Source of the DNA: Natronobacterium haloterrestre | Lineage (GTDB): Archaea > Halobacteriota > Halobacteria > Halobacteriales > Natrialbaceae | NCBI RefSeq assembly: GCF_900112205.1 | Contig: NZ_FOKW01000001.1 | Coordinates: 620,001-684,000 of the forward strand | Direction: 5' to 3' | DNA length: 64,000 bases | Part shown: positions 8,445 to 15,545 of the stretch, piece by piece | How the letters are laid out: each line of letters opens with the position of its first letter | How positions within the stretch are numbered: position 1 is the stretch's first letter | Position numbers and translations under genes: made by a program | Notes under the pieces: generated by a model | Told to the model about the DNA's origin: nothing | The model's database searches: none | The model's input: only the letters and a program-made list of their open reading frames with translations

Positions 8445-8480
8445 ACTGAAGCCCCAGACTGAACCCGTCGAGGAAAGGGT

Positions 8481-8490
8481 ATTTATAGGA
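8481..8490 (+). promoter_or_regulatory. Likely TATA box of the kinase-KaiC operon
   Basis: ATTTATAGGA in an AT-rich patch after the quinone reductase gene. It lies about 105 nt before the ATG at 8592, implying a 5' leader of roughly 75-80 nt if used. Confidence 0.4.
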
Positions 8491-8591: not shown

Positions 8592-11500
8592 ATGCCGTCG
8601 CTTCGCGTACTGTACGTCGACGGGGAGTCGGCCCTCGAGCCGGTCGGCCGCTACCTCGAGTCCGAGACCGACGCGGCCGAGTTCGAGGTGCGGACCGAAG
8701 CGAGCGTCGACGACGCGCTCGCGACCCTCGAACGGGTCGACATCGACTGTATCGTCTGTGGGACGGCCCTCGAGGTCGACCCGTTGTCCGTTCTCCGGGC
8801 CGTTCGATCGGACGACCGGACGGTGCCGTTCGTACTGTTCGCCGACGAGGACGGGGCGTCGGCCGAGACGGTCAGCGACGCCTTCGCAGCCGGGGTGACC
8901 GACTACGTCCGGAAGGGAAACCAGGCGACCGAAGAATACGAGGTGCTCGCCCGCCGGATCGAGGCCGCATCCCGCGAGGAGAGTGAACTCTCGCTGGGTC
9001 CCGAGCGCGTCGAGGAGGCGATCGACCACGCCGCCGACGCCGTCTTCGTCACGAACACCGACGGCCGGATCGAGTACGCGAACGGAGCGTTCGAAGCGGT
9101 TACCGGCTTCTCCGCCTCGGAGGCGATCGGTCGGAACCCGCGGATCCTCAAGTCGGGCGAACAGGACGAGTCGTACTACGAGCAAATGTGGAGCGCGATC
9201 CTGGACGGCCAGGTCTGGGAGGAAGAGATCGTCAACGAACGAAAGTCCGGCGACCGGTACTTCGCCCACCAGACGATCGCTCCCATCGTCGGCGAGGACG
9301 GGACGGTGGAGAAGTTCGTCGCGATCCAGCGGGACGTGACCGACCGCCGACGCCTCGAGCAGGAGATCGAACGCTCCGCGAGCACGCTCTCGCGGCTCCA
9401 CGACGTGGCGTTCGAACCGAACCGCCCGGTCGACGAGAAACTCGAGCGTCTCCTCGAGATCGGAACGGAGTCGCTCGCGTTCCCGATCGGCTACGTCACC
9501 CGGATCGAGAACGGCACCCAGCGGATCGTCGCGGCCATCGGCGATCACGAGCGGATCCAGGAGGGGGCCACGGACCCGCTCGAGCAAACCTACTGTCGGC
9601 ACACCCTCGAGGCCGACGAACCGGTCGTGGTGACCGACGCCGCGAACGATCCAGAGTGGGAGATCGATCCGGCCTTCGAGCGGTTCGGGCTGCGCTGTTA
9701 CGTCGGCGCGAAGATCGTCGTCGAGGGCGACGTCTACGGGACCGTCTGTTTCGCGAGCGAGGAGCCACGGACGCCCCACGTCGGGCAGGTCCAGCAATCG
9801 ACCGTAAAGGCCCTCGCACAGTGGGTCGGCCACGAACTCGAGCGCCGGCGCTACGAGTGCGACCTCGAGCGCTACGAGGAGATCATCGAGAACGTTCCCG
9901 TCGGCGTCTTCCGGTCGACGCCCGGCGAGGAGGGGGCCTTCCTCGAGGTCAACGACGCGATGGTCGAGATGTTCGACGCTCCGTCGAAGGCGGCGCTGCT
10001 CGAGCGACCCCCCGCCGAGTGCTACCGGAACCCCGGCCGACGGGCGGAGTTCAGCGAGGCCCTCACCGAGTACGGAGAGCTCCGCAACGAGGTGATCGAA
10101 CTGGAGACGTTCGAGGGCGACCCCTTCTACGGCTCCCTCTCCGCGATCGAGCGACGCGACGGCGAGGACGTCTACTTCGACGGCATCCTCCAGGACGTCA
10201 CCGAGCGCGAGCGGACGAAGGCGGAACTCGCACGCAGCAGGGAACGGCTCCAGGTCCTGTTCGACCAGTCGCCAGACGCGATCATCGTCCACGATTCGGA
10301 CGGCTGTATCCTCGACGTCAACGAGAAACAGATCGAACAGACGGGGTACGACCGCGACGAGTTGCTCTCGATGAACGTCGGAGACGTCGAGACGGGGCTT
10401 TCGCTGCCGGAACTTCGGGGGATCTGGGAGGACCTCGAGCCCGGATCGGTTCTAGAAGTCGAAGGCGAACACCGGCGGCGCGACGGCTCGACGTACCCCG
10501 TCGAGATCTGGGTGAGCTGTATCGAACTGGACGACGAGCGGCGGTTTCTCGCGCTCAGTCGCGAGATCACCGAACGAAAGGAACGCGAGCGGGATCTCGA
10601 GCTTGCACACACCCAGCTCAGGCAGGTCATCGATCTCGTGCCCGACCTGATCTTCGCCAAGAACCGGGACGGCGAGTACATCCTGGCAAACGAGACCGTC
10701 GCCGACGTCTACGGGCGCTCGCTCGAGGAGATCGAGGGGAAAACGGACGCGGAACTGCTCGAGTCGGCGGCACAGGTGGAAGCCTTCCGGGCGGACGACC
10801 GCGAGGTCATCGAGTCGATGGAGCCCAAACACATCCCGGAGGAGGAGCTGACGGCCGCGGACGGCCGGACGCTGTTCATCGAGACGACGAAGATCCCGTT
10901 CGAGGTCGCCGGTACGGGCGAGCCGGCAGTCCTGGGCTACGCCCGGGACGTCACCGAACTCAAGGAGCAACGCGACAGGCTCGACCTGCTCAATCAGGTC
11001 GTTCGTCACGACGTCCGCAACGACATGCAGGTCGTCAAGGGGCGGGCGCAGTTACTCGCCGACCGACTCTCGGGTGCCGAAGCGGACACGGCCGCGGACG
11101 CGGACGCGCATCTGGATCTGTCCGCCGCCGAGGAACACCTCTCGGAGGTCCTCGAGTCGGCCGAGGAGGCCATCGAGTTGACCAAGACCGCACGCGATCT
11201 GACCGAGACGATGCTCGAGCGGGACGACGAACGACGGCCCGTGGCGTTGCCGCAGGTCCTGACCTCGCGGATCGACGCGATCCGCGCCCGCTACTCCGAC
11301 GCACGGATCTCCCTCGAGGGGTCGGTGCCCGAGGCGTCGGTGGTCGCCGACGACATGCTGACGTCGGTCGTCGACAACCTGCTCGTCAACGCGATCGTTC
11401 ACAACGACGCCGCCGAGCCGCGGGTGACGGTGTCGGCGGACGTCGAAGGCGACCGTGTCGTCCTCCGTGTCGCCGACAACGGGCCGGGCATTCCCGACAA

Positions 11501-11681
11501 CCGGAAGGCGGACGTGTTCGGGAAGGGGGAGACCGACATCGACAGCCCGGGGACGGGGCTGGGGCTGTACCTCGTCAGGACGCTCGTCGAGCAGTACGGC
11601 GGCGACGTCTGGGTCGAGGACAACGATCCCGAGGGGAGCGTCTTCACCGTTTCGCTCCGTCGCGCGGGTGACCGGGAATGA
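8592..11681 (+). CDS. Multi-PAS/GAF sensor histidine kinase with a receiver-like N-terminus
   Basis: Soluble sensor kinase of 1029 residues with no membrane segments. Order: receiver-like domain (about 5-125), PAS (137-255), GAF (266-423), three further PAS domains (about 426-541, 546-666, 669-790), a phosphoacceptor helix with His806 (VVRHDVRND), and a complete HATPase domain with N-box NLLVNAIVHND, DNGPGIP and GTGLGLYL. The receiver-like domain has Gly57 where the phosphorylated Asp would be expected (DCIVCGTAL), so it probably does not accept phosphate. Start ATG 8592 is preferred to the upstream TTG at 8562. It is the first gene of a co-directional group with the KaiC-like gene and a second kinase. 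Signal and cognate regulator are unknown. Confidence 0.92.
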   Translation: MPSLRVLYVDGESALEPVGRYLESETDAAEFEVRTEASVDDALATLERVDIDCIVCGTALEVDPLSVLRAVRSDDRTVPFVLFADEDGASAETVSDAFAAGVTDYVRKGNQATEEYEVLARRIEAASREESELSLGPERVEEAIDHAADAVFVTNTDGRIEYANGAFEAVTGFSASEAIGRNPRILKSGEQDESYYEQMWSAILDGQVWEEEIVNERKSGDRYFAHQTIAPIVGEDGTVEKFVAIQRDVTDRRRLEQEIERSASTLSRLHDVAFEPNRPVDEKLERLLEIGTESLAFPIGYVTRIENGTQRIVAAIGDHERIQEGATDPLEQTYCRHTLEADEPVVVTDAANDPEWEIDPAFERFGLRCYVGAKIVVEGDVYGTVCFASEEPRTPHVGQVQQSTVKALAQWVGHELERRRYECDLERYEEIIENVPVGVFRSTPGEEGAFLEVNDAMVEMFDAPSKAALLERPPAECYRNPGRRAEFSEALTEYGELRNEVIELETFEGDPFYGSLSAIERRDGEDVYFDGILQDVTERERTKAELARSRERLQVLFDQSPDAIIVHDSDGCILDVNEKQIEQTGYDRDELLSMNVGDVETGLSLPELRGIWEDLEPGSVLEVEGEHRRRDGSTYPVEIWVSCIELDDERRFLALSREITERKERERDLELAHTQLRQVIDLVPDLIFAKNRDGEYILANETVADVYGRSLEEIEGKTDAELLESAAQVEAFRADDREVIESMEPKHIPEEELTAADGRTLFIETTKIPFEVAGTGEPAVLGYARDVTELKEQRDRLDLLNQVVRHDVRNDMQVVKGRAQLLADRLSGAEADTAADADAHLDLSAAEEHLSEVLESAEEAIELTKTARDLTETMLERDDERRPVALPQVLTSRIDAIRARYSDARISLEGSVPEASVVADDMLTSVVDNLLVNAIVHNDAAEPRVTVSADVEGDRVVLRVADNGPGIPDNRKADVFGKGETDIDSPGTGLGLYLVRTLVEQYGGDVWVEDNDPEGSVFTVSLRRAGDRE

Positions 11682-11778
11682 GCGGGCGACCACCGGGGTC
11701 GACGCGAGGAGAATCGCCGACGAACCGAACTCGAAGAGGGCGCCGCGACGCGCGGCACCGATCGACTGGTTGGAATCC

Positions 11779-13272
11779 ATGACAGACAGCACCGAGAACG
11801 CGAGCAGGGAACCCGAACGGATACGCAGCGGTATCGACGGACTGGACGACGTCCTGCGGGGCGGACTGGTGACTGGACGGCTCTACCTCGTCTGTGGCCG
11901 CCCGGGGACCGGGAAGACGCTCCTGGGGATGCACTTCCTCGAGGCCGGACTCGAGCGCGGCGAGACGGTACTTTTCGTCCACGGCGAGGAGTCCCGCGAG
12001 GAGATACTCACGAACGGTTCGCGGCTCGGGATCGACATCTCCGACGCCGCGTTTCTCGACCTCGGGCCCGAGTCGGAGTTTTTCACGGAGGATCGGTCGT
12101 ACGACCTCGTCGATCCGGCCGAGGTCGACCACGACCGGTACACCCAGGACATCCACGAGGCGATCAGGGAGATCGATCCGGCGCGGGTCGTCATCGATCC
12201 CATCACCCAACTGCGATACATCGAACCCAACGAACACCAGTTCCGCAAGCGGATCCTCTCGCTCATGCGGTTTCTCAAGGAACGGGACACGACCGTCGTC
12301 ACGACGGCTACGGTCTCCGGCGACGGCGAGTACGACGTCGAGGTCCAGTCGTTGAGCGACAGCGTCATCGAACTCGAGCGTGGCGACGGCGGTCGACGGC
12401 TCCGGGTGACCAAACACCGCGGCTACGGGCAGAAGCGCGGCAGCCACGGGATGGAGATCAGGGACGGCGGAATCGACGTGTTCCCGGCGCTGGTTCCCGA
12501 GCGCCACGATCGGTCGTTCGATCCCCACCCGCTCGGCTCGGGGAACGGGGCGCTCGACGAACTCGTCGGCGGCGGCCTCGAGTCCGGTACCGTCACGTTC
12601 GTCAGCGGCCCGACGGGGGCCGGGAAGACGACCACGGCGGCGCAGTTCCTCGCACAGGCCGCGGCGGAGGGAACGAACGCCGTCCTCTATCTCTTCGAGG
12701 AAGGGGTCGACACGTTCACGCACCGGTCGGAGTCGGTGGGGCTGCCGATCACGGACCTGCGCGAGGAGGGGTCGCTCGCGGTCGAACCGATCGAACCGCT
12801 CTCGCTGTCCGCCGAGGAGTTCGCCCACATGGTCCGAGAGCGGGTCGAACGGGGGGACGCCGAGGTGGTGATGATCGACGGCATCGACGGCTACACGATG
12901 TCGCTGCAGGGCCGGACGGAGGGACTCGTACGGAAGCTACACGCGCTGACCCGCTACCTGAAAAACCGGGGCGTTACCGTGCTGGTCACGGACGAGATCC
13001 AGCAACTCGCCGGCGTGACGAACGCGACGAGCGCCAATCTCAGCTACATCGCCGACAACATCGTCTTCATCAGCTACCTCGAGGCCGACGGCGGGCTGGA
13101 GAAAGTGATCGGCGTGTTGAAGAAACGAGCGGGACCGTTCGACCGGACGCTGCGCACGTTCGAGATCACTGCGGATGGGGTCCGGATCGGCGGACCGGTG
13201 ACGAGCCACACCGGCGTTCTGCAGGGACGACCGCGAGAACGACAGACCGACGGCGGCGTAGGTGACCGATGA
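11779..13272 (+). CDS. KaiC-like double RecA-domain ATPase
   Basis: KaiC/RadA-superfamily protein of 497 residues with two tandem RecA domains. The first has Walker A GRPGTGKT (40-47) and the catalytic Glu pair in 'HGEESREE'; the second has GPTGAGKT (277-284) and 'LFEEGVDTF'. Both look competent for ATP binding and hydrolysis. Cyanobacterial KaiC is the clock protein; haloarchaeal homologues are generally thought of as signalling ATPases, so a clock role is not implied. It lies between two histidine kinases and its stop overlaps the next ATG (ATGA at 13269-13272). Start ATG 11779 is chosen; an in-frame GTG at 11669, inside the end of the previous gene, is an alternative. Confidence 0.9.
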   Translation: MTDSTENASREPERIRSGIDGLDDVLRGGLVTGRLYLVCGRPGTGKTLLGMHFLEAGLERGETVLFVHGEESREEILTNGSRLGIDISDAAFLDLGPESEFFTEDRSYDLVDPAEVDHDRYTQDIHEAIREIDPARVVIDPITQLRYIEPNEHQFRKRILSLMRFLKERDTTVVTTATVSGDGEYDVEVQSLSDSVIELERGDGGRRLRVTKHRGYGQKRGSHGMEIRDGGIDVFPALVPERHDRSFDPHPLGSGNGALDELVGGGLESGTVTFVSGPTGAGKTTTAAQFLAQAAAEGTNAVLYLFEEGVDTFTHRSESVGLPITDLREEGSLAVEPIEPLSLSAEEFAHMVRERVERGDAEVVMIDGIDGYTMSLQGRTEGLVRKLHALTRYLKNRGVTVLVTDEIQQLAGVTNATSANLSYIADNIVFISYLEADGGLEKVIGVLKKRAGPFDRTLRTFEITADGVRIGGPVTSHTGVLQGRPRERQTDGGVGDR

Positions 13273-14873
13273 GCGGCGACGCGGACCGGCCCAGCGGGAC
13301 TCCGGCGAGCGGAGACGACGGCGAGGGCAAGGGCAAGCGCGAGGGCGACGGTGACGGCGAGGGGGAAAGCGAGAACGGTACGACCGACGGATACCGACGA
13401 GTCCCGTCGACCGGCCTCGAGGACGGGTCCGAGGACACGATCCAGTTGCTCGTCGCCAACGACGGCGACCGGAGCGCCCTCCGGGAGTTGCTCGCCGACC
13501 GGTACCGGGTCGTCACCGACCGCCTCGAGGACGCGGACCTGTACCTCGTCGAGGATCGGGCGTTCCCGGAGTACCGCGAGGCGCTTCGCGAGCGGACCGA
13601 AACGGCCGACCCCACGTTCGTCCCCGTCGTCGTCGTCCGCGGACCCGACTCGAGCCGTCGCTCGTGGCCCGCGCTCGAGCAGCGGTCCGACCCGCCGGTC
13701 GTCGACGACGTCGTGGACGCGCCGATCGATCCGCCGCTTCTGTATCGACGCCTCGAGAGCCTGCTCGTCCGGCGTCGCCAGTCGATCGCGCTGGCGGACC
13801 AGGTCGCGACGCTCGAGGAGCGCGAACGCGAGCTTCGAGGGTTCAAGCGGGTCGTCGAACAGACCGGCCACTCGATCACGATCACCGACACCGACGGGGA
13901 GATCCGGTACGTCAACCCCAGTTTCGAGGAGGTAACGGGATACACGGCGTCGGAGGCGATCGGACGCAACCCTCGCATTCTCCAGTCCGGAGAGCACGAC
14001 GAGGCGTTCTACGAGGACCTCTGGGGGACGATCAGTTCGGGTGAGGTGTGGAAAGGCGAGGTCGTCAACGAGCGGAAAGACGGGACGCGGTACGTGGTCG
14101 AGCAGACGATCGCGCCGATCACCGCGAACGGCGACATCGAGGGCTACATCTCGGTCAACTCCGATATCAGCGACCGGATCCAGCGCGAGCGCGAACTCCG
14201 GCAACGAGAGCGCGAACTCGAGGTGCTTCGGCAGATCCTCACGCGCGTCCTCCGGCACAACATCCGGAACGCGCTCACCGTCGTCTCGGGGTACGCCGAG
14301 CGGATCGCGACCGACCTCGAGGAGCCCTACGCCGGGATGGGGGAGGCCATCCTCGAGACGACCGACAAGATCGAACGGACCAGCGAGAACGCCCGGGCGA
14401 TCAGCGCGATCCTCGAGGAGAGCGGCGGCGTGACCGAGCACGATCTGGCGACCGTCGTCGAGAACGCCGTCGCGACGGTCCGGGAGCGGTATCCGGCCGT
14501 CACCATCGACGTGGACGTCCCGTCGGAGTATCGGGTCCTCGCCGGGGCGCACCTGCAACACGCGGTCGACAACCTCGTCGAGAACGCGGCCCAGCACAAC
14601 GACGCCGACGAGCCGCGGATCGACATCGTCGCGGAGACGGCCGAGGACGTCCGGCTCGTCGTCGAGGACAACGGTCCCGGAATCCCGGAGCACGAACTCG
14701 AGCCACTCGACAGCGCGGAGGAGACGCCCCTCGAACACGCAAGCAGCACCGGCCTGTGGTTGATCAACTGGGTGGTCGAACTCTCGGACGGGTGCCTCGA
14801 GTTCGACGTCAGCGAGGACGGCACCCGCGTCGAGATCGAACTGCCGGCGGCGGGAACGGTCGATCCGGCGTGA
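13269..14873 (+). CDS. PAS-domain sensor histidine kinase
   Basis: Soluble kinase of 534 residues, translationally coupled to the KaiC-like gene by an ATGA overlap. It has an acidic low-complexity N-terminus of about 50 residues, a receiver-like domain (about 57-175), one PAS domain (about 190-310), a phosphoacceptor His330 in 'VLRHNIRNAL', and an HATPase domain with NLVENAAQHND and DNGPGIP. The second glycine box is the shortened STGLWL form. Its PAS domain closely resembles the first PAS of the upstream kinase (both contain 'SEAIGRNPRIL'), suggesting related ligands or a shared origin. No output regulator is encoded next door. Confidence 0.9.
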   Translation: MSGDADRPSGTPASGDDGEGKGKREGDGDGEGESENGTTDGYRRVPSTGLEDGSEDTIQLLVANDGDRSALRELLADRYRVVTDRLEDADLYLVEDRAFPEYREALRERTETADPTFVPVVVVRGPDSSRRSWPALEQRSDPPVVDDVVDAPIDPPLLYRRLESLLVRRRQSIALADQVATLEERERELRGFKRVVEQTGHSITITDTDGEIRYVNPSFEEVTGYTASEAIGRNPRILQSGEHDEAFYEDLWGTISSGEVWKGEVVNERKDGTRYVVEQTIAPITANGDIEGYISVNSDISDRIQRERELRQRERELEVLRQILTRVLRHNIRNALTVVSGYAERIATDLEEPYAGMGEAILETTDKIERTSENARAISAILEESGGVTEHDLATVVENAVATVRERYPAVTIDVDVPSEYRVLAGAHLQHAVDNLVENAAQHNDADEPRIDIVAETAEDVRLVVEDNGPGIPEHELEPLDSAEETPLEHASSTGLWLINWVVELSDGCLEFDVSEDGTRVEIELPAAGTVDPA

Positions 14874-14978: not shown

Positions 14979-15545
14979 TCAGGAACGGCGTTCCGCCTCG
15001 TCGGCCCCGACGTCCTCGAAGGACACGTCCCACTCGAGGTCGTGACGGACGAACTCGGCCTCGTCCAGCGGCTCGCCGCCCCGGAACGCGAACTCGCCGG
15101 CGATCGTCCGTCCCTCGAGGACGCCGGGCAGCCAGAGCCGGTCGTCCTCCCACATCCGATCGTAGGGGACGTCCTCGATATCGACCCACTCCGGGCGGGC
15201 CTCGTCCGAGGCGGTCGGTTCGCCCTGGAACGCGGTCGTCCGGAAGACGTGACAGAACGTGTGGACCTCGCCGTCCAGCAGGAAGGTCAACTCGCCGGCC
15301 TTCTCGAGGTTGGCGGGGTCGATCTCCAGGCCGACCTCCTCGCGCGTTTCGCGGACGGCACACTCGCGGGGCGTCTCGTCGCCCTCGAGTTTGCCGCCGG
15401 GGCCGTTGTACCAGCCCTCGCCGAGCCCGCGGCGTTTCTCGATCAGGAGGACGTCGTCGGCGTCGGTCACGCCTGTCGCGTCGGTCGCGCTCGAGTCGTC
15501 GACGGTCCGCGCCCGCAGCGGGAAACACAGCGTCGCCTCGATCAT
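14979..15545 (-). CDS. NUDIX hydrolase, MTH1/8-oxo-dGTP diphosphatase-like
   Basis: The 188-residue protein has a perfect Nudix box (G-x5-E-x7-REUxEExGU: the segment from GGKLEGDE to REEVGL), which binds the metal and positions the catalytic glutamates. Around it, 'GWYNGPGGK' and 'MWEDDRLWLPGVLEG' match the MTH1 (NUDT1) arrangement, whose members sanitise oxidised purine nucleotides. A short acidic insertion near residues 15-30 is unusual. It sits next to a DNA-repair-type helicase-nuclease operon on the same strand but is separated by about 100 bp, so co-transcription is possible, not shown. Confidence 0.88.
   Translation of the reverse strand: MIEATLCFPLRARTVDDSSATDATGVTDADDVLLIEKRRGLGEGWYNGPGGKLEGDETPRECAVRETREEVGLEIDPANLEKAGELTFLLDGEVHTFCHVFRTTAFQGEPTASDEARPEWVDIEDVPYDRMWEDDRLWLPGVLEGRTIAGEFAFRGGEPLDEAEFVRHDLEWDVSFEDVGADEAERRS

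Follow-up and report, generated by a model that had tools for sequence, protein, structure and literature searches.

In a 64,000-nucleotide stretch of the Natronobacterium haloterrestre genome (contig NZ_FOKW01000001.1, positions 620,001 to 684,000 of the forward strand; hereafter the window), a gene for a KaiC-like double ATPase lies between genes for two histidine kinases, HK1 upstream and HK2 downstream. The conserved unit in this arrangement is the pair formed by KaiC and HK2, not the three-gene cassette, and the hallmark of the pair is a predicted pseudo-receiver domain (psREC) at the front of HK2. The KaiC/psREC-kinase pair is a real and widely conserved module, of which the cassette in the window is the least conserved version. 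We favor, with a probability of roughly 0.6, a reading in which KaiC acts as a switch, psREC as its reader and the kinase as the output, with neither KaiB nor a SasA-type domain taking part. The features of the pair in the window are as follows.

11779..13272, + strand: KaiC-like double RecA-fold ATPase (ATG at 11779, stop at 13272; domain and motif searches)
11896..11919, + strand: CI Walker A motif, GRPGTGKT (motif)
11986..11991, + strand: CI catalytic Glu pair (motif, alignment)
12607..12630, + strand: CII Walker A motif, GPTGAGKT (motif)
12697..12702, + strand: CII catalytic Glu pair (motif, alignment)
13042..13047, + strand: Ser-Tyr at the position of the clock KaiC autophosphorylation sites Ser431-Thr432 (alignment)
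13269..14873, + strand: HK2, soluble psREC-PAS-HisKA-HATPase kinase, 534 aa, with a four-base overlap with KaiC (open reading frame, domain search)
13437..13805, + strand: psREC, pseudo-receiver of HK2 and partner domain conserved with the KaiC subfamily (profile, model)
13842..14177, + strand: PAS domain of HK2, absent from most Natrialbaceae psREC kinases (domain search)
14256..14258, + strand: His330, predicted H-box phospho-acceptor of HK2 (sequence motif)

KaiC and a pseudo-receiver kinase form a conserved pair

A KaiC search returned a match at E 1e-20 in 56 of 125 Natrialbaceae genomes, and at E 1e-60 in 227 of 392 genomes sampled across the order, with matches in 63 of 95 genera. Three sets of loci were compared. 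The Natrialbaceae set (n = 68) holds all 70 double-domain KaiC places except the window and one place at a contig edge; for the other families of Halobacteriales the first 60 loci listed were fetched and 59 counted, the KaiC gene being uncalled in one; the third set holds 20 named loci. Some loci recur between sets (the proteins of L044 and L100, for instance, are identical, and the contigs of the two are equally long), genes were called with a home-made gene caller, and neighbours were identified by eye unless scanned with Pfam.

The next same-strand gene after KaiC encodes a psREC kinase at 63 of 68 Natrialbaceae loci, 52 of 59 loci of other families and 14 of the 20 named loci. The other six named loci come from bacteria, and there a stand-alone receiver directly follows KaiC. 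Specifically, five of them (L056, L059, L060, L061 and L063) have the order KaiC, stand-alone receiver, psREC kinase, and at the sixth (L062) psREC is found at the expected place by profile search, not by the gene caller. A stand-alone receiver is also the next gene at one further locus of the 68 and three further of the 59, and neither gene stands next at L113, L120, L121 and L131 (of the 68) and at L168, L212, L215 and L221 (of the 59). KaiC is split into two frames at L113 and L172, which are possibly decaying copies or sequencing errors; at L113, psREC lies downstream and was missed by the gene caller.

The downstream kinases differ in their sensor domains. Among the 63 from Natrialbaceae, 55 have no PAS match, six have one and two have two; among the 52 from other families, 18 have none, 19 have one, 13 have two and two have three. 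The sensors are thus variable and psREC is constant. Furthermore, the pair is not confined to archaea: it also occurs in records whose titles name Cyanobacteria, Chloroflexi, Christensenella and Sedimentisphaerales. Among archaea, a Haloferax larsenii plasmid carries the module. On that plasmid (L224), two psREC kinases (357 and 823 aa) follow KaiC directly, a short one and a PAS-containing one. On an Acaryochloris plasmid (L225), two opposite-strand kinases flank KaiC; the psREC match is clear in the upstream kinase and weak in the downstream kinase.

The front domain of HK2 is predicted to be a pseudo-receiver

HK1 and HK2 both contain PAS and HATPase domains and H-, N- and G-box motifs. HATPase_c scores above the cut-off in both, the H-box His is called from the sequence, and HisKA stays below threshold in HK2 and is not among the matches listed for HK1; with a predicted phospho-acceptor His and an HATPase domain, each qualifies by sequence as a histidine kinase. 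Consistent with the first-pass annotation, which described two soluble PAS kinases, neither has a membrane-helix stretch (maximum 19-residue Kyte-Doolittle mean, 1.38).

The front domain of HK2, ~125 residues long, has no match in a Pfam search at E 0.001, and neither has that of a bacterial relative. An AlphaFold2 model built from a 33-row alignment (A1) has a predicted local distance difference test score of 88.6. With this model, all three PDB matches that Foldseek gave at E 0.001 or better are receivers, and VIA-align gave Z-scores of 12.3–13.8 among the 50 matches listed, with receivers highest and the best match at Z 13.8 (root-mean-square deviation 2.1 over 114 residues). As modelled, the front domain has a receiver fold.

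Among 140 aligned psREC rows, the receiver Lys is retained in one, and the Thr/Ser position is occupied by Arg or other residues in most. At the phospho-site, 117 rows have Asp, 12 have Gly, 10 have Glu and one has Ser; in the psREC of the window, the Asp is replaced by Glu, the Thr/Ser by Arg and the Lys by Ala. From the loss of the Lys and Thr/Ser residues and the persistence of the Asp, the domain is therefore a pseudo-receiver that has lost active-site residues and still keeps the Asp in most relatives. A search of the source genome with the front part of HK2 found no other matching place. A SasA-type front domain was considered and rejected: there is no KaiB match in HK2 or in the genome (4.50 Mb; 0 matches to PF07689), and the psREC model has a receiver fold.

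psREC occurs almost only beside one KaiC subfamily

In the 125 Natrialbaceae genomes, the psREC profile gave 78 matches at E 1e-5, of which 70 lie within 3 kb 3′ of KaiC on the same strand, two adjoin KaiC in another orientation and six lie elsewhere. By genome, 55 have both KaiC and psREC, one has KaiC only (at a contig edge), four have psREC only and 65 have neither (Fisher p 1.9e-29, a value that ignores relatedness). Among 146 cyanobacterial genomes, KaiC is matched in 67 at E 1e-20 and psREC in seven at E 1e-12, and a KaiC match below E 1e-100 occurs in those seven genomes and in no others. In the remaining 60 KaiC-bearing cyanobacterial genomes KaiC is of the clock type only, the best matches range from about 1e-38 to 1e-52, and none has psREC at E 1e-12. 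psREC is found almost only beside the KaiC subfamily of the window, and its sequence profile separates this subfamily from clock KaiC.

The window KaiC is a double ATPase outside the clock clade

The protein matches PF06745 (KaiC) with 240.1 bits over two stretches, its closest solved structures are KaiC proteins, and both P-loops and both Glu pairs, on which its initial description as a double ATPase was based, are present, as are both K-x-R fingers. It is a double ATPase of the KaiC superfamily. Four results reject its identity as a clock KaiC. The protein scores 176.6 bits against TIGR02655, for which the equivalog cut-off is 546.25, and 262.9 against the PRK09302 model, for which the cut-off is 408. 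It has Ser-Tyr, not Ser-Thr, at the autophosphorylation sites; in 87 aligned rows, this protein included, these residues are Ser-Tyr in 79, SH in six, NY in one and SN in one, and Ser-Thr is found in eight of nine clock-type KaiC proteins fetched from cyanobacteria. Finally, it falls outside the clock clade in a tree of 62 rows, and the genome has no match to KaiB.

In this tree, the nine clock-type rows group with support 99/96, and the window subfamily comprises 52 rows, archaeal and bacterial, with support 97/99. The bacterial rows are nested within haloarchaeal diversity in the tree, which is midpoint-rooted for drawing only and in which two long-branch rows were kept and one outgroup (L133) has a very long branch. 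Sequence identity of the window KaiC is 26–28% to clock-type KaiC and 40–48% to bacterial members of the subfamily.

Putative output regulators adjoin the pair in relatives

A REC-HalX regulator is encoded directly 5′ of KaiC at L108–L111 (4 of 68 Natrialbaceae loci) and at L214 from Halorussus (1 of 59); at all five, regulator, KaiC and psREC kinase run in one direction. The annotation of the Halorussus locus agrees, listing a HalX domain protein, an ATPase and a PAS kinase. Stand-alone receivers lie downstream of KaiC in bacteria and at haloarchaeal L119, L216, L219 and L222. A complete set of regulator, KaiC and kinase therefore exists in relatives, since REC-HalX or receiver genes adjoin the pair there. 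The first-pass annotation proposed searching the genome for a partner regulator; the source genome has 23 receiver matches, and none adjoins the module except the weak one in HK1. The cognate regulator is unlinked to the module in this genome.

Relation to known systems

The first-pass annotation had likened the locus to cyanobacterial KaiC and SasA. Set against the KaiC-SasA output arm of the Synechococcus elongatus clock, the analogy is sound only in that a KaiC-family double ATPase would be coupled to a soluble kinase through the N-terminal domain of the kinase. It breaks down at that domain, which is modelled as a receiver fold and is a KaiB-like thioredoxin in SasA, and at KaiC, which is here of a non-clock type in a genome with no KaiB match. 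According to PMC5520375, the KaiB-like domain is missing from SasA homologues outside cyanobacteria, and archaea do not have the known output pathway, so that theirs must be a different one. Pseudo-receivers in KaiA and CikA work in the Kai system (PMC12632262), a likeness to psREC; the CikA pseudo-receiver, however, binds KaiB, whereas psREC heads a kinase encoded beside KaiC in a genome with no KaiB match.

The proposal of Makarova, Galperin and Koonin (2017), as cited in PMC5847659, that KaiC-like ATPases are archaeal signal-transduction hubs resembles our reading in general form. In Haloferax volcanii, cirC is the only double-domain cir gene and adjoins fixL; cirC deletion disturbs light-dependent cir gene expression, and such expression is lost in cir mutants (PMC3941300). 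CirC and fixL are probably the same module as KaiC and the psREC kinase, and the part of PMC3941300 covered discusses no pseudo-receiver. PMC13286277 deals with CirA, a different KaiC homologue, and PMC11832031 treats myxobacterial KaiC homologues, not the KaiC/psREC pair. Searches of open-licence papers, covering listings and passages of the papers named here but not the 2017 hub paper, showed no description of a KaiC-specific pseudo-receiver kinase module, and a search on Pseudomonas KaiC operons listed nothing on it. Two elements are already published: the idea of KaiC as a signalling hub in archaea, and the position of cirC next to a kinase gene in Haloferax. For the signal output of KaiC outside the cyanobacterial clock, the pair offers a concrete, testable partner domain, with Haloferax species as model hosts for genetic work.

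A model for KaiC output through psREC, and the reverse

Our reading draws on gene order, domain anatomy, co-occurrence, the modelled receiver fold, residue losses and the subfamily tree. In this model, a non-clock KaiC, presumably a hexamer, would shift its state with energy status or another input, through ATP binding and hydrolysis and possibly autophosphorylation at Ser-Tyr. psREC, with the receiver Lys and Thr/Ser lost, would dock on KaiC rather than accept phosphate in the usual way, and the docked domain would control autophosphorylation of the attached cytoplasmic kinase. Phosphate would then move from the kinase to a response regulator; in relatives this would be the stand-alone receiver or HalX protein encoded beside KaiC, and here an unlinked one. 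In this genus, HK1, with its multiple PAS domains and GAF, would have been added 5′, probably on the same transcript, as an extra input. Hexamer formation, docking, the direction of control, phosphotransfer and any role in timing are inferred. The notion of a KaiC-gated two-component system in the first-pass annotation fits the conserved pair, with no KaiB match in the genome (KaiA was not searched); its three-gene form does not.

A broader claim is more tentative, and we would put it at somewhat short of even odds: psREC may be a dedicated KaiC-reading domain that provides a KaiB-free, SasA-independent route from the KaiC ATPase to a kinase, a route present in haloarchaea and several bacterial phyla that would have been transferred between domains as one unit. 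psREC could then supply the output arm that non-clock KaiC proteins have been missing, with Ser-Tyr autophosphorylation replacing Ser-Thr. If true, this would give a function to a pseudo-receiver that matches no Pfam model here.

Several observations weigh against a KaiC switch read by psREC. A psREC kinase without a KaiC match at E 1e-20 occurs in four Natrialbaceae genomes (G060, G061, G065 and G076; L232–L235), and psREC can therefore persist alone; four of the 70 KaiC places have no same-strand downstream psREC; and gene adjacency among related genomes is partly common descent. In addition, the Asp kept in 117 of 140 psREC rows fits a residual phospho- or metal-linked role better than pure docking, and most bacterial KaiC rows have a degenerate first Glu pair. 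The kinases at L232–L235 may be orphan readers, perhaps with another partner.

Information could also flow in the reverse direction, with HK2 (and HK1) sensing through PAS and GAF domains and setting the ATPase or kinase state of KaiC as the output hub. This is the less probable direction, at perhaps one chance in four. In its favor, cyanobacterial KaiA and CikA have pseudo-receivers that target the Kai core or its inputs (PMC12632262), HK2 forms with several PAS domains are frequent outside Natrialbaceae, and the architecture of HK1 is typical of a sensor. However, 55 of 63 Natrialbaceae psREC kinases lack a PAS match, which leaves psREC as the only evident input domain in most of them, and the receiver or HalX gene beside the pair in relatives points to an output by phosphotransfer.

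HK1 is a genus-level addition to the pair

The features of HK1 and its upstream region are as follows.

8592..11681, + strand: HK1, soluble histidine kinase, 1029 aa, a genus-level addition (open reading frame, domain search)
about 8592–8966, + strand: degenerate receiver-like N-terminus of HK1 (weak receiver match)
about 9426–9815, + strand: GAF domain of HK1 (domain search)
11007–11009, + strand: predicted H-box His806 of HK1 (motif)
8480..8487, + strand: possible archaeal TATA-like box 5′ of HK1, TATTTATA (stretch kept in G081)

HK1 consists of the receiver-like N-terminus, PAS, GAF, further PAS domains, the H-box His and HATPase. It lies 5′ of KaiC in three of the five genomes of the genus (this genome, G081 and G082), and the other two (G080 and G083) have no KaiC match. 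The first-pass annotation proposed checking whether the three-gene order is conserved, and it is not: HK1 precedes KaiC at two of the 68 other Natrialbaceae loci, and both of these belong to this genus. Furthermore, the nearest full-length relative outside the genus (64% identity, in G118) lies on contig C25, and the KaiC matches of that genome lie on C9, C28 and C38, with none on C25. We therefore reject HK1 as a member of the conserved unit, and a symmetrical kinase-KaiC-kinase cassette is not supported as a functional unit, because HK1 is genus-restricted at the locus and its relative is unlinked to KaiC. A kinase of any kind lies 5′ of KaiC at 2 of 68, 3 of 59 and 3 of 20 (named) loci, with other kinases in other lineages; by eye, the upstream kinases at L047 and L048 have a canonical receiver.

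The PAS segment SEAIGRNPRIL, pointed out earlier as shared by the two kinases, is indeed present in both, and it is not specific to them. In a search with the HK2 PAS, an unlinked kinase of the same genome has two PAS repeats at 58% and 54%, versus 45% for HK1. Because these repeats outscore HK1, the segment was rejected as a sign of a matched HK1/HK2 pair.

The order HK1, KaiC, HK2, all on the + strand, and the ATGA coupling of the last two, both described in the first-pass annotation, are confirmed by the open reading frames: the HK2 ATG (13269–13271) overlaps the KaiC stop TGA (13270–13272). The HK1-KaiC junction is an uncoupled 97-base gap. The stretch TATTTATA 5′ of HK1 is a possible archaeal TATA-like box, and none was seen in the 97-base gap; A+T content is 51% in the 147 bases 5′ of HK1 versus 30% in the gap. 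The upstream box and box-free gap fit one transcript for all three genes and are only suggestive of it. The ratios of nonsynonymous to synonymous substitution rates against G081 are 0.21, 0.15 and 0.27 for HK1, KaiC and HK2, indicating purifying selection on all three.

These constraints, the box-free gap and a gene order and orientation shared by three genomes of the genus would suit a single dedicated KaiC-gated system with two output kinases, serving as a clock-like timer. We consider this improbable, since HK1 does not accompany KaiC outside the genus, where its relative at 64% identity is unlinked, the genome has no KaiB match and the KaiC is outside the clock clade. Least probable by far is that the pair has no functional link and represents two signalling genes set side by side by descent or block transfer: both gene types are common in haloarchaea and some psREC kinases occur without KaiC, but the pair is kept in archaea and several bacterial groups, and psREC is found almost only beside this KaiC subfamily.

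A convergent gene lies 3′ of HK2 (14979–15545, minus strand); by eye it is NUDIX hydrolase-like, and it is probably outside the module.

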